A program made the translations under genes and the position numbers. The notes beneath the pieces were generated by a model, which was not told the DNA's origin, made no database searches, and saw nothing but the letters and a program-made list of their open reading frames with translations. From positions 186,001 to 250,000 of the forward strand of contig NZ_JAAWWK010000004.1 in assembly GCF_012272835.1 (NCBI RefSeq): 64,000 nt of DNA, in the 5' to 3' direction. This DNA comes from Spongiibacter thalassae (GTDB taxonomy: Bacteria > Pseudomonadota > Gammaproteobacteria > Pseudomonadales > Spongiibacteraceae). Each line of letters opens with the position of its first letter. Positions within the stretch are counted from its first letter, which is position 1. This document shows positions 3,775 through 44,748 of this stretch, piece after piece.

Positions 3775-3859
3775 CGCTAGACGCTAGACGCTAGACGCTA
3801 GACGCTAGACGCTAGACGCTAGACGCTAGACGCTAGACGCTAGACGCTAGACGCTAGAC
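3775..3859. repeat. Heptamer tandem repeat, about 12 copies of CGCTAGA
   Basis: Uninterrupted array of a 7-bp unit covering 85 bp with no variant copy that I could see. It starts three bases after the T-run of the peroxidase terminator and lies about 185 bp upstream of lptM. Being intergenic it cannot shift a reading frame, but copy-number change could alter spacing upstream of the lptM-lysA-dapF promoter. The 180 bp after it are rich in C and T (repeated CTCCCG) and hold no gene. Confidence 0.95.
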
Positions 3860-15227: not shown

Positions 15228-16385
15228 ATGAACACCCCCCGCCTACTTGACATGATGGGCCAGCTCATTGCCCTGCCCTCTGTGAGCGCCACCAGCGAAC
15301 GCTGGGACATGGGCAATCGCAAGGTCATCGAACAACTGGCCAACTGGCTGGAACCACTGGGGTTCAAGGTGCGCATCATGCCCCTGGCCAACCCCGACAA
15401 AGCCAACCTTATTGCGACCTACGGCAGTGGCGAAGGCGGCTTGGTATTGGCCGGTCACACCGACACCGTGCCCTATGACGAGGCCAAATGGCAGTCAGAC
15501 CCCTTTACCCTCAGCGAACGCGACAACCGCTACTACGGCCTGGGCAGCGCCGACATGAAGGGCTTTTTTGCACTGGTCATCGAAGCCCTCAAACCAATGC
15601 TCGAGCAGAATTTCAAGTCACCGTTAATCATTCTGGCCACCGCCGACGAAGAGAGCAGCATGGACGGTGCCCGGGCACTGGTTAAAGCCGACCTCAGCGG
15701 CGCCCGCTACGCCATTGTCGGCGAACCTACCGGCCTGCGCCCTATTCGCGCCCACAAGGGCATGATGATGGAAGGCATTACCATTACCGGCCGCAGCGGC
15801 CACAGCTCGAACCCTGCACTGGGCAACAACGCCCTGGAAGCCATGCATGAGGTTATGGGCGCGCTGATGACCCTGCGCGGACAACTGCAACAGCAGTACC
15901 ATCACCCCGGCTTTGCGGTGCCCGGCCCCAGCATGAACTTCGGCTGCATCCACGGCGGCGACAACCCCAACCGCATCTGCGGCCAGTGCGAGCTGCACTT
16001 CGACATTCGCCCGGTGCCCGGAATGGAAGTTGCCGCCACCCGCGAACGCTTGCAACAACTGCTTACCCCCATTGCCGAACGCCGCAAAATCAATATTGGC
16101 CTGCGCGAACTGATGCCCGGCATCGAGGCCTACGAGCAGGCTGCCAACTCCGAACTGGTGCAAATGGTTGAGCAGCTGACGGGACTTGGCGCAGAAACCG
16201 TCGGCTTTGCCACTGAAGCCTCGTTTTTCCAAAAGCTGGGAATGCAAACCATTGTGATGGGGCCGGGCCATATCGATCAGGCCCATCAACCCGACGAATA
16301 CCTGGGCGCGGACCAAATCACCGACGGCATCACCCTGCTGCAGCAACTGATCGCAAAAGTCTGTCTGCACCAAAACAAAGCATAG
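15228..16385 (+). CDS. argE: Acetylornithine deacetylase
   Basis: M20 zinc peptidase-family enzyme that releases ornithine from N-acetylornithine in arginine synthesis. ATG 15228 gives 385 residues (E. coli 383). Metal-site motifs: GHTDTVPYD (about 79-87), GLGSADMKGFFA (about 105-116), TADEESSMDGA, and the dimerisation-domain GRSGHSSNP. The frame is open upstream inside the phosphate transporter, but that part is not ArgE. A TACAAT -10-like element is at 15192. The stop TAG shares its last base with a 26-bp palindromic repeat. argB, of the same pathway, lies 35 kb away. Confidence 0.93.
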   Translation: MNTPRLLDMMGQLIALPSVSATSERWDMGNRKVIEQLANWLEPLGFKVRIMPLANPDKANLIATYGSGEGGLVLAGHTDTVPYDEAKWQSDPFTLSERDNRYYGLGSADMKGFFALVIEALKPMLEQNFKSPLIILATADEESSMDGARALVKADLSGARYAIVGEPTGLRPIRAHKGMMMEGITITGRSGHSSNPALGNNALEAMHEVMGALMTLRGQLQQQYHHPGFAVPGPSMNFGCIHGGDNPNRICGQCELHFDIRPVPGMEVAATRERLQQLLTPIAERRKINIGLRELMPGIEAYEQAANSELVQMVEQLTGLGAETVGFATEASFFQKLGMQTIVMGPGHIDQAHQPDEYLGADQITDGITLLQQLIAKVCLHQNKA

Positions 16386-16410
16386 GGGTCTGTCCCCGGG
16401 GACAGACCCC
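16385..16410. repeat. Dispersed palindromic repeat, copy 1
   Basis: Perfect 26-bp palindrome made of GGGGTCTGTCCCC followed by its reverse complement. It begins in the argE stop codon. The same sequence is found at 36634-36659 (inside a longer palindrome) and 44723-44748. As RNA it would form a 13-bp hairpin without a loop; there is no T-run, so it is not a standard terminator. Confidence 0.95.
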
Positions 16411-16480: not shown

Positions 16481-19024
16481 ATGAACCGCGCAACTGTCGC
16501 CAGATGGCTACTTACCGGGATTTTTTCAGTCACATTCATTGCTTGCGGCGGCGAAACCTCGCCCGACAAGACCACCAGCAAGGATATTGGTGCAGAAGGC
16601 GGAGAGATCGTCGCCACTGATGGGCGCCTGAAATTGACCTTCCCACCCCAGGCACTGCCGGAAACCACAACCATTACGATTAACGAAGTCGAGCGCAGCC
16701 AGCTTCCGCAAACCTTTCAGGAGGGTGACTTCGCCGAGGGTTCCCGTTTTTATCAGCTGCTGCCCGATGACCTGACCTTTACCCAGGCAGTCAAAATTGA
16801 ATTGGAGATGGATGCCAGCGAAATCGATAACAGCTCGCTGGCCTTTCACGGCACCCACTTTTTACTTACCGCCGGCGATGATGATGCACCGCAGTTGGTG
16901 GCCAATCAGCTACTCGACGTCGACGCCGCCACCGGCAAGGCCATTTTGCACGGTGACCTGCTGCACTTTTCGCCGCTGGTCGACCTGGTCACCCTCAGCA
17001 ACCGCTCGGGTAGCGGCGGCGAGCTTCAACGCAGTTTTACCTACGACGTGGGCCAGAGTTTCAGCTACAACGTCGTGGCCTCCCTTGGCGTTGACAATAT
17101 CGACACCGACGACCACCTGACCAGTATTTCGGTCAGCAGCCAGACCAGCGCTTTTATCAATATTATCGGCACTCCACTTGTCACCGCCCAGAGTCAGTTC
17201 TTCCCCTACCTGAACGACGACACCGAGCAATCCGGTCGCCACTACGCCGAGGCCATTTCCCAGTTCGAATGCGCCGAGAGCGGCGTGGGCACGGTGGTGA
17301 TGACCCTTACCGAATTCTTCAACCGGCGACCCGACGACAGCACATTTATCAGCCAGGCCAATGTTGGCAACAGCATTACCCTCGCCCAGATTCTTCCCGA
17401 GGAAGCGCTGCCCAGCCAATATCTTACCCGTTACAACGTACCGGTGACCTGCGTTGGCACCACCGACCCCGGCACTGATCCGGGGACAGACCCCGGTACC
17501 AGTTGCGCGAATGAAGTACAGCGGGAGTTCCTCCGTCTGGATATTGCACTGACTGGCCCCGGCGTGCCCACGGTACCTGCCGACAGCGAAATTGCGCTGT
17601 CTCGCATCAGTAATATCGAAGCCGTTTCCGACGCCCATATTCAGGAGTTTGGCTGCTCGGTACGCCACCTGCATGGCAGCGCCATATATGTCGACAAAAA
17701 AGGGCCGCACCCCGAGCCCGATCGCAGCGGCGAACCGACATCTGAGCAAGGCTGTGGTTACGGCGAGGTCTTCACCAAAGCGGTTTGCCTTGATCCCGTG
17801 CAACCCGGCGAACTGGAAGTTGGCATACACCGGGTTCGTCACCCCCAGGACCGCTTTGTTGAGTCGGCCCCCATCACCCACGCCCAGGTGTTGAATCAGG
17901 CCACAGGTATCCCGGCCGACGGCACGGTGGCCACCTCGTCGGAAGCTTCCGTCGCCAAGGGACTCAACGGCAGCGGCAGCCGCGGATTTGCACTGAATAA
18001 TACGGCCTTCGGCCCGCTGGTTGCTTTCAATATCGATTTCAGCTTTCAGCAGAAGCAGGATCTCGCGGTCGATCTGCTCCACGGTGACGTGTTGCATACC
18101 GGGTTGACCATCGGCGAAAAATTCCGCTTTGCCCTGTCGCAGAAGGTGCCCGGGCCGGGCAGTCGCGCGGTCACCGGCGCCGGAGATGAAGCCAGCACGG
18201 CGGCCGAGGAATACGACCCCGCCTTTGATTCCACCGAACCCACACTACAGGACGTGTTCAACGCCCCGTTAAGCGACTACAGCCTGTCCGGGTTCAGCGG
18301 TAATTTCACCGGGACGGCTGAGACCATTGTGTTGACCAACCCCGATGCCATCGCCGTAGTGTCCTTCGCGAACCCTGAAATCGCCGGTGACCGAAACCCG
18401 GCTAACCGCTTCAATCAAACAAGCTACTTCGGCCTGGAATATTTCGGTTCAGATACCATTGTCACGGCAGCGGCGGTGGGTGGTGGCAGCAGCTCCGACC
18501 TGTTGGTGGTCACCTCCAACTCCGTCAACGGCAAGCTGTGGTTTATCCAGCAGGGCGAAGCGATAGAGATCGCCACTCTGGGTACGCGCCCCAAACGTTT
18601 GCGCTGTTTGAATAGCACCCTGTGTGCCGTCATCGATGATGCCGACAACACGCTGACGACCATTAGCCTGCTGGAATCAACACTGCCCACCGTCAAAACC
18701 ACGGTGTCCATCGGCAGTCAGCCGCAAAGCCTGGATTTACTGCTCGATGACAGTGGTAATTATGTGGCGCTCACCCTCGACAGCACCGGTGATTCGAGCC
18801 AGTACCATTTGGTTAAACTCGACGCTAACGCCAATCTGATAGACAGCGAGTCCTACACCATCGACAGCGCCTGTGCCGATCCCGGCGAAGCGATTTGGGT
18901 CAGGGATACGGTGAGCAGCAAGGTACTGGTAACATGCCCCGGCGCCTTGTCACCCGCCGAAAAGGCAGAGGCCACTTACTGGATTGACGCGCCCTTCAAT
19001 AGCAGTGATGACGACGACACCTAA
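16481..19024 (+). CDS. Large lipoprotein with ZU5-like N-terminal domain
   Basis: 847-residue protein with a signal peptide and lipobox FIAC|G (Cys22), so probably attached to the outer membrane. Residues about 35-75 (GAEGGEIVATDGRLKLTFPP and following) resemble a ZU5-type beta domain. A short linker of DPGT repeats near residues 327-338 separates the N-terminal part from a Cys-containing middle region, and the C-terminal third, with evenly spaced beta-like segments and SIGSQPQSLDLLLDDSGNYV, may form a propeller. I do not recognise a function. Its end overlaps the convergent PepSY gene by four bases. A partial copy of the palindromic repeat (17480-17494) codes for part of the linker. Confidence 0.75.
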   Translation: MNRATVARWLLTGIFSVTFIACGGETSPDKTTSKDIGAEGGEIVATDGRLKLTFPPQALPETTTITINEVERSQLPQTFQEGDFAEGSRFYQLLPDDLTFTQAVKIELEMDASEIDNSSLAFHGTHFLLTAGDDDAPQLVANQLLDVDAATGKAILHGDLLHFSPLVDLVTLSNRSGSGGELQRSFTYDVGQSFSYNVVASLGVDNIDTDDHLTSISVSSQTSAFINIIGTPLVTAQSQFFPYLNDDTEQSGRHYAEAISQFECAESGVGTVVMTLTEFFNRRPDDSTFISQANVGNSITLAQILPEEALPSQYLTRYNVPVTCVGTTDPGTDPGTDPGTSCANEVQREFLRLDIALTGPGVPTVPADSEIALSRISNIEAVSDAHIQEFGCSVRHLHGSAIYVDKKGPHPEPDRSGEPTSEQGCGYGEVFTKAVCLDPVQPGELEVGIHRVRHPQDRFVESAPITHAQVLNQATGIPADGTVATSSEASVAKGLNGSGSRGFALNNTAFGPLVAFNIDFSFQQKQDLAVDLLHGDVLHTGLTIGEKFRFALSQKVPGPGSRAVTGAGDEASTAAEEYDPAFDSTEPTLQDVFNAPLSDYSLSGFSGNFTGTAETIVLTNPDAIAVVSFANPEIAGDRNPANRFNQTSYFGLEYFGSDTIVTAAAVGGGSSSDLLVVTSNSVNGKLWFIQQGEAIEIATLGTRPKRLRCLNSTLCAVIDDADNTLTTISLLESTLPTVKTTVSIGSQPQSLDLLLDDSGNYVALTLDSTGDSSQYHLVKLDANANLIDSESYTIDSACADPGEAIWVRDTVSSKVLVTCPGALSPAEKAEATYWIDAPFNSSDDDDT

Positions 19025-36620: not shown

Positions 36621-36672
36621 CAATTATGCCCTTGGGGACAGACCCCGGGGTCTGTCCCCAAGGGCATAATTG
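36621..36672. repeat. Perfect 52-bp palindrome containing dispersed repeat copy 2
   Basis: Two 26-base arms, each the exact reverse complement of the other, with no spacer (centre between 36646 and 36647). The middle 26 bp are the dispersed repeat in the opposite order (GGGGACAGACCCC then its complement); the outer arms are CAATTATGCCCTT and complement. It lies 22 bp after the pteridine reductase stop and 100 bp before nsrR. Confidence 0.97.
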
Positions 36673-36771
36673 TCTGTTTTTACTACACATTAATATGTCT
36701 CGCACGATTTATGCATTGAGCTTGTAGCAACGCTCTACAACAACAAACTTTGCAGAAGAATCGGCGCTACC

Positions 36772-44722: not shown

Positions 44723-44748
44723 GGGGTCTGTCCCCGGGGACAGACCCC
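44723..44748. repeat. Dispersed palindromic repeat, copy 3
   Basis: Same perfect 26-bp palindrome as at 16385-16410, placed between the rpmG terminator and the AddB-like start. Together the three copies share the 13-base arm exactly. Confidence 0.95.

Follow-up and report, generated by a model that had tools for sequence, protein, structure and literature searches.

The perfect 52-bp palindrome at positions 36621..36672 (no strand assigned) of the window, by which we mean the whole stretch of 64,000 nucleotides of Spongiibacter thalassae DNA analysed here, most likely consists of two copies of a 13-bp TIR/REP-like unit, joined as an inverted dimer with no spacer; the unit would be part of a RAYT-type (Y1, HUH) transposase system of the species' own. 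We assign this reading a probability of roughly 0.78. Three observations lead to it: two units in inverted orientation make up the core of the palindrome, the unit is present in 110 copies, and units flank a RAYT/Y1 gene of the same genome.

Arm-to-arm comparison confirmed the two 26-base arms without spacer reported in the preliminary description: 36621-36646 is the exact reverse complement of 36647-36672, with 0 bases between them, and the symmetry stops at 26 bases per arm, the next outside bases being unpaired. The palindrome consists of a 26-bp core, i.e. an exact copy of the dispersed unit GGGGACAGACCCC (36634..36646, + strand) joined with spacer 0 to its own reverse complement (the second, inverted unit at 36647..36659, − strand), and of 13 extra paired bases on each side, CAATTATGCCCTT (36621..36633, + strand) and its exact complement AAGGGCATAATTG (36660..36672, + strand), which lie outside the dispersed unit. 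The arm, CAATTATGCCCTTGGGG, occurs in the window once per arm of the palindrome and nowhere else, even with 3 mismatches. By base counting, the chance of encountering an equivalent 52-mer in 64 kb is negligible; no Rfam family matched at the site.

The core had been described as a repeat present twice more in the window. There are indeed two more sites (16385..16410 and 44723..44748, no strand assigned), both zero-spacer inverted pairs, but their units are arranged the other way round (GGGGTCTGTCCCC before GGGGACAGACCCC); what these sites share with the palindrome is therefore the 13-base unit rather than the whole 26-base core. A fourth site, overlooked at first, is a single unit on the + strand (17482..17494) within an 847-codon ORF, where it is translated PGTDP. 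In total, the window contains 8 matches to the unit at up to 2 mismatches (1.5 expected), a number reached in 0 of 100 shuffles. Note that the single unit lies within the run DPGTDPGTDPGTS, and that the peptide repeat encoded there may be the unit's own source; separately, a GC-rich inverted repeat, recognized by eye, comes after the pair at 44723..44748.

On the scale of the 4.4-Mb genome, GGGGACAGACCCC is present in 110 exact copies, 55 per strand, versus 0 for the reversed unit used as a control. Allowing up to 1 mismatch raises the count to 156 (control, 5) and up to 2 mismatches to 252 (control, 135); that is, 46 copies have one mismatch and 96 have two, compared to 5 and 130 for the reversed pattern. 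A 1.05-Mb sample, composed of 800 kb of contig C1, 100 kb of C6 and stretches chosen for their copies (the window together with portions of C12 and C13), holds 39 exact copies, 5 with one mismatch and 14 with two. The distribution along C1 is uneven: positions 1-379926 have 0 exact 13-mers, and the next 470 kb hold 14 clusters.

The copies are mostly grouped. An inventory covering 109 of the 110 exact copies yielded 76 clusters, namely 34 singles (30 of them exact), 33 pairs and 9 larger groups, with 79 of the 109 exact copies sitting in pairs or larger clusters; the same holds for 22 of the 26 one-mismatch copies in the clusters read, 19 of the 46 one-mismatch copies falling outside this reading. 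The spacing within the 33 two-unit pairs takes two forms only: the spacer is 0 in 23 and 6-10 in 10, with none between. Fifteen of the zero-spacer pairs have one unit order and 8 the other. Relative to heuristically called ORFs, 10 of the 23 lie between convergent neighbours, 2 between divergent ones, 4 between two − strand and 3 between two + strand ORFs, 2 are inside short ORFs and 2 have one neighbour missing; by the same ORF calls, many zero-spacer pairs start 2-10 bases past an ORF end and many are within 15 bases of one.

What sets the palindrome apart is the unusual extension of its symmetry, by 13 bases per arm, beyond the core. When flank complementarity was scored at the 23 zero-spacer pairs, the values were 13, 7, 5, 4, 3, 3, 2 and 2, the remainder being 1 or 0. 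Among 506 cross-pairings of flanks taken from different sites, by contrast, at least 3 complementary bases were obtained in 2.6% and at least 5 never, compared to 3 of 23 authentic pairs with 5 or more. No such excess was seen at the 10 spaced pairs or at 29 singles (one exact single was dropped because of Ns in its flank). The second-highest value, 7, belongs to the pair in front of the transposase gene P0001 (see below). Two routes could account for the symmetry of the arms: the dimer may have been generated by hairpin-primed inverted copying that extended into the flanking DNA, or it may have landed in a pre-existing stem-loop.

The genome contains two Y1_Tnp genes, P0001 and P0002. P0001 lies on C13, a contig other than that of the window, and encodes a protein of 192 residues that passes the Pfam Y1_Tnp model and, narrowly, the NCBIfam REP_Tyr_transpos model (81.6 versus a cut-off of 80); a sequence search of the PDB returned no relative. 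It is preceded by an inverted unit pair ending 27 bases before the ATG; on its other side, a cluster of three units begins 2 bases past the stop codon. The preliminary description was thus right to connect the dispersed repeat with a transposase of the TnpA-REP (Y1) type. P0002 passes REP_Tyr_transpos more clearly (122 bits) and is surrounded by a different, longer repeat; together they make up the genome's second repeat system. These longer repeats, TGTAGGAGCTTGCCCTGCAAGCGAA, recall Pseudomonas REPs (P0002 locus at L032 1100-1960, C9 near 8333).

The association of the unit with the transposase extends to other genomes. Among the best 80 of 511 stretches encoding a relative of P0001 (52-61% identity), 76 carry the unit at up to 2 mismatches, versus only 4 of 30 loci from the searched relatives, whose P0001-like genes are more distant (S. 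thalassae's own locus is counted in both figures), which confines the link to the closer relatives of P0001; the reversed unit was found at 10 of the 110 P0001-type loci. The unit at these loci is commonly on the + strand before the gene and on the − strand after it, and it usually reads GGGGACAGACCAC, preceded by AATA and followed by GGTTT or GTTTT. This form is absent from the S. thalassae genome, where the three non-C forms at the position distinguishing GGGGACAGACCAC account for one copy, ending in CGC.

Exact copies of the unit are missing from 17 genomes of the same genus, which together have 19 copies at up to 1 mismatch. In a sample of 369 genomes of the class, 24 have the exact unit, S. 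thalassae ranking first with its 110 copies, followed by genomes with 46, 35 and 20. A genome of the same order (G028) harbours a sister family, GGGGTCAGACCCC, which resembles the S. thalassae unit in lying near a P0001-like transposase (46% identical; L113) and differs from it in that most of its copies have AT-rich paired arms (e.g. taaat/attta; 11 stretches, L349-L359).

The absence of exact units from the congeners fits the recent formation proposed for the palindrome at the outset, with the proviso that "recent" is to be taken loosely, since the congeners are mostly 63-83% identical over matched stretches. The accompanying argument, that long perfect palindromes are usually unstable and that this one may be protected, carries little weight. 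Palindromes of 52 bp are normally tolerated, and no protection is needed to explain persistence, since 22 other zero-spacer pairs sit in the genome. The palindrome studied as a break hotspot in Escherichia coli is far longer, at 460 bp according to the portion of that study available to us (PMC4245961).

Two described families of transposase-linked repeats offer close parallels. In the sections of the TIRYT/TIRtron paper at hand (PMC3733652), a RAYT-like Y1 gene lies between inverted repeats, some TIRs share the motif GGGGWSAS and some of the repeats form moderately abundant families occurring in dimers and clusters; likewise, P0001 is a RAYT-like gene flanked by inverted repeats, GGGGACAG of the unit fits GGGGWSAS, and the unit is dispersed as singles, dimers and groups. 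The S. thalassae unit departs from TIRYT/TIRtron elements in having shrunk to a bare 13-mer, in its 23 zero-spacer dimers and in its singles at native positions within genes. REP/REPIN sequences with their RAYT, as presented in extracts of PMC2817692 and PMC3116915, are also small palindromic repeats that occur in inverted pairs and are tied to a Y1 transposase. Unlike them, the S. thalassae unit has no GTAG-type tag as judged by eye, and its singles are mostly in genes: by heuristic ORF calls, 23 of the 30 exact singles lie in ORFs, compared to 2 of the 23 zero-spacer pairs. Neither the flanks of the 76 clusters, inspected by eye, nor base counts around the 30 singles revealed a shared GTAG/GTRG tag, the only flanking consensus of the 30 singles (exact by selection) being a weak GA after the unit. 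Taken as a palindrome, the feature is an unremarkable representative of the transposase-linked repeats, a class that has received little study. A search by three 10- or 11-base pieces of the 13-mer gave no bacterial paper on the motif among the matches listed.

The transposase would have made the dimers and spread them through hairpin single strands. This mobility is an inference: no empty site could be aligned, the congeners being too distant in intergenic DNA.

The part that matters is the copies in genes. From their translations, we accepted as real genes 21 of the 23 ORFs that contain an exact single. Eighteen of the 21 were scanned against Pfam; all 18 had a family match, and the site was inside the matched domain in 13. 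The unit is read in sense in 10 of the 21 genes and in antisense in 11, in all reading phases, giving rise to the peptides GTDP (8 genes), GLSP (6), GSVP (3), GVCP (2), GQTP (1) and GDRP (1).

Insertion of a 13-base unit is expected to leave four-five extra residues or a frame shift. Neither was observed in any of the 10 genes tested, and insertion of the unit was therefore rejected as the source of the copies in these genes. At the site, 8 of the 10 are gapless in the best alignment. For CarB, 18 relatives were read at the DNA level, all of them aligning gaplessly and showing GGY GGN CAR ACN CC, versus GGG GGA CAG ACC CC in S. thalassae; the GltB-like gene aligns without a gap with 12 of 12 relatives read; the Maf protein is gapless at the site relative to 7 relatives (at the DNA level, paired gaps occur within the aligned segment in 4 of the 7, the proteins remaining gapless at the site); PdxB is gapless relative to 2 relatives, and the MaoC-like protein and RsmD relative to 1 each. 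The best alignments of the ChsH2-like and solute-binding proteins to solved homologues are also gapless at the site, their second-best alignments having one- or two-residue differences near it. In the two other cases, an FAD dehydrogenase and one LysR regulator, gaps occur at or beside the site and it is the S. thalassae protein that is shorter. Of the 13 positions of the unit, about 2 to 7 are different in the relatives, as counted by eye. In the genes tested, the 13-mers thus occupy native positions and, judging from these alignments, were made by substitution rather than by insertion.

Chance was likewise rejected as the origin of the gene copies. The ORFs of the 1.05-Mb sample contain 7 copies (some of which may lie in spurious ORFs over pairs), whereas the mean was 0.12 and the maximum 1 when these 761 ORFs were shuffled synonymously 60 times. 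The 17 congeners have 0 exact copies.

We also looked for copies in genes elsewhere, in 18 stretches of G067, 11 of G028, 2 of G064, 1 of G018 and 1 of G046, and in 20 further stretches taken from the class sample (11 genomes), all picked from the places listed. The behaviour was rejected for these genomes: their units mostly have paired AT-rich or GATC-like arms, and on this account it is so far particular to the S. thalassae genome. About six stretches look like native coding sequence by eye, one each in G067, G320, G224, G165, G018 and G046; we provisionally take them as chance background.

A single 13-mer appears both to insert and to arise in place in one genome: provided that the dimers spread by insertion, insertion between genes and gain in place within genes would be two processes acting on one sequence. 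One tentative interpretation, which we consider possible though short of probable, is that the transposase repeat has become a self-spreading signal, with dimers inserted between genes and, within genes, partly matching native DNA overwritten one base at a time or through templated conversion, in a manner resembling DNA uptake sequences. If the dual behaviour holds, the genome would be a natural case for testing how uptake-like signals, or other sequence signals that spread themselves, originate; and if a transposase recognition sequence did turn uptake-like, it would reveal a route by which such signals are born. In the published record, intragenic REPs are described as insertions in the available part of Di Nocera et al. 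2013 (PMC3733652), and a literature search for a connection between RAYT and intragenic, synonymous or uptake behaviour yielded nothing relevant among the matches listed.

A different and rather doubtful view is that the 13-mer is itself a DNA-uptake-type or transfer-biased signal, which builds up through substitutions within genes and, between them, in the form of inverted-pair terminators, DNA bearing it being preferred as a donor and the transposase repeat having become, or copied, the signal. The behaviour of the copies agrees with it: single gene copies arise in place where tested (none of the 10 genes has an inserted unit), they occur in both senses (10 versus 11) and in all reading phases, and the inverted pairs lie behind ORF ends. 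The accessible passages of PMC1939737 and PMC2397512 ascribe similar behaviour to uptake sequences, mentioning their origin by in-place point mutation and their location inside ORFs (65% in Haemophilus influenzae, 35% in Neisseria gonorrhoeae; PMC1939737), and the action of their closely spaced inverted repeats as terminators (PMC2397512). In-place coding origin, both orientations and inverted pairs near gene ends are thus common to DUS/USS and to the 13-mer. The genome also has a ComEC-family gene, but its presence is uninformative because ComEC is common (10 of 14 control genomes have it). Several points speak against this view. Although over-represented, the 13-mer has 110 exact copies, few by the standard of DUS (hundreds to thousands; about 2,000 in Neisseria according to the portion consulted of PMC2397512); 79 of 109 copies are clustered, versus about 10% present as inverted repeats in uptake systems in the excerpted PMC1939737; exact copies are absent from the 17 congeners; and, unlike DUS/USS, the 13-mer is identical to the repeat flanking a transposase.

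It is also conceivable, but improbable, that the gene copies are selected binding sites for a host protein, such as a chromosome organiser or the transposase, the dimers being double sites. The over-representation of the exact sequence in coding DNA (7 versus 0.12) is compatible with such selection, whereas the 13-mer is no full palindrome and has no known binding protein here.

As regards its local role, the palindrome lies between a pteridine reductase gene (P0003, 35856..36599, + strand; NCBIfam NF006598, 333.5 bits versus a cut-off of 288) and a gene encoding an Rrf2-family, NsrR-like regulator (P0004, 36772..37200, + strand; Rrf2 superfamily, 101.5 versus a cut-off of 73.3; NsrR equivalog model, 131 bits, under the cut-off of 182). 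It is separated by 21 bases from the stop codon of the former and by 99 bases from the start of the latter. Its predicted RNA fold has an energy of −49.3 kcal/mol (mean of shuffles, −23.1; z −7.95), equalled by 0 of 200 shuffles, and the GC-rich stem is followed by a T-rich tail, TCTGTTTTTACT (36673..36684, + strand), that is terminator-like according to sequence, terminator scan and fold, with the T-run not beginning directly at the stem end. The RNA hairpin probably ends or protects the pteridine reductase transcript. That the palindrome is a mere intrinsic terminator of this gene with no tie to a mobile element is nonetheless very unlikely: the strong hairpin, the T-rich tail and the location 21 bases past the stop suit a terminator, but as a sole explanation it is contradicted by the 110 occurrences of the 13-mer and by its presence around a transposase gene. 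Finally, while foldback reads can yield perfect symmetry, an assembly artefact of this kind is hardly credible, because 23 zero-spacer pairs are found at different places with differing flanks, and here the symmetry ends sharply at 26 bases with gene-bearing DNA on both sides.

In the nearest syntenic genome found (G006), the gap between the pteridine reductase and nsrR-like genes is longer and different: it spans about 450 bases (L363), compared to 172 in the window, and a reverse-strand ORF within it resembles, by eye, a truncated haemoglobin. Other repeats were noticed in S. thalassae. Positions 3775-3858 of the window consist of 12 head-to-tail copies of a 7-base repeat (CGCTAGA), a sequence also seen in the 11-mers that are most over-represented in the 1.05-Mb sample; TGAACTGAACT-type repeats are over-represented in the C1 sample (L309-L348); and a tandem array of at least 10 13-bp units (CGGGACAGACCCC) lies beside an N run at L056 6932-7061 (C9 near 22131).
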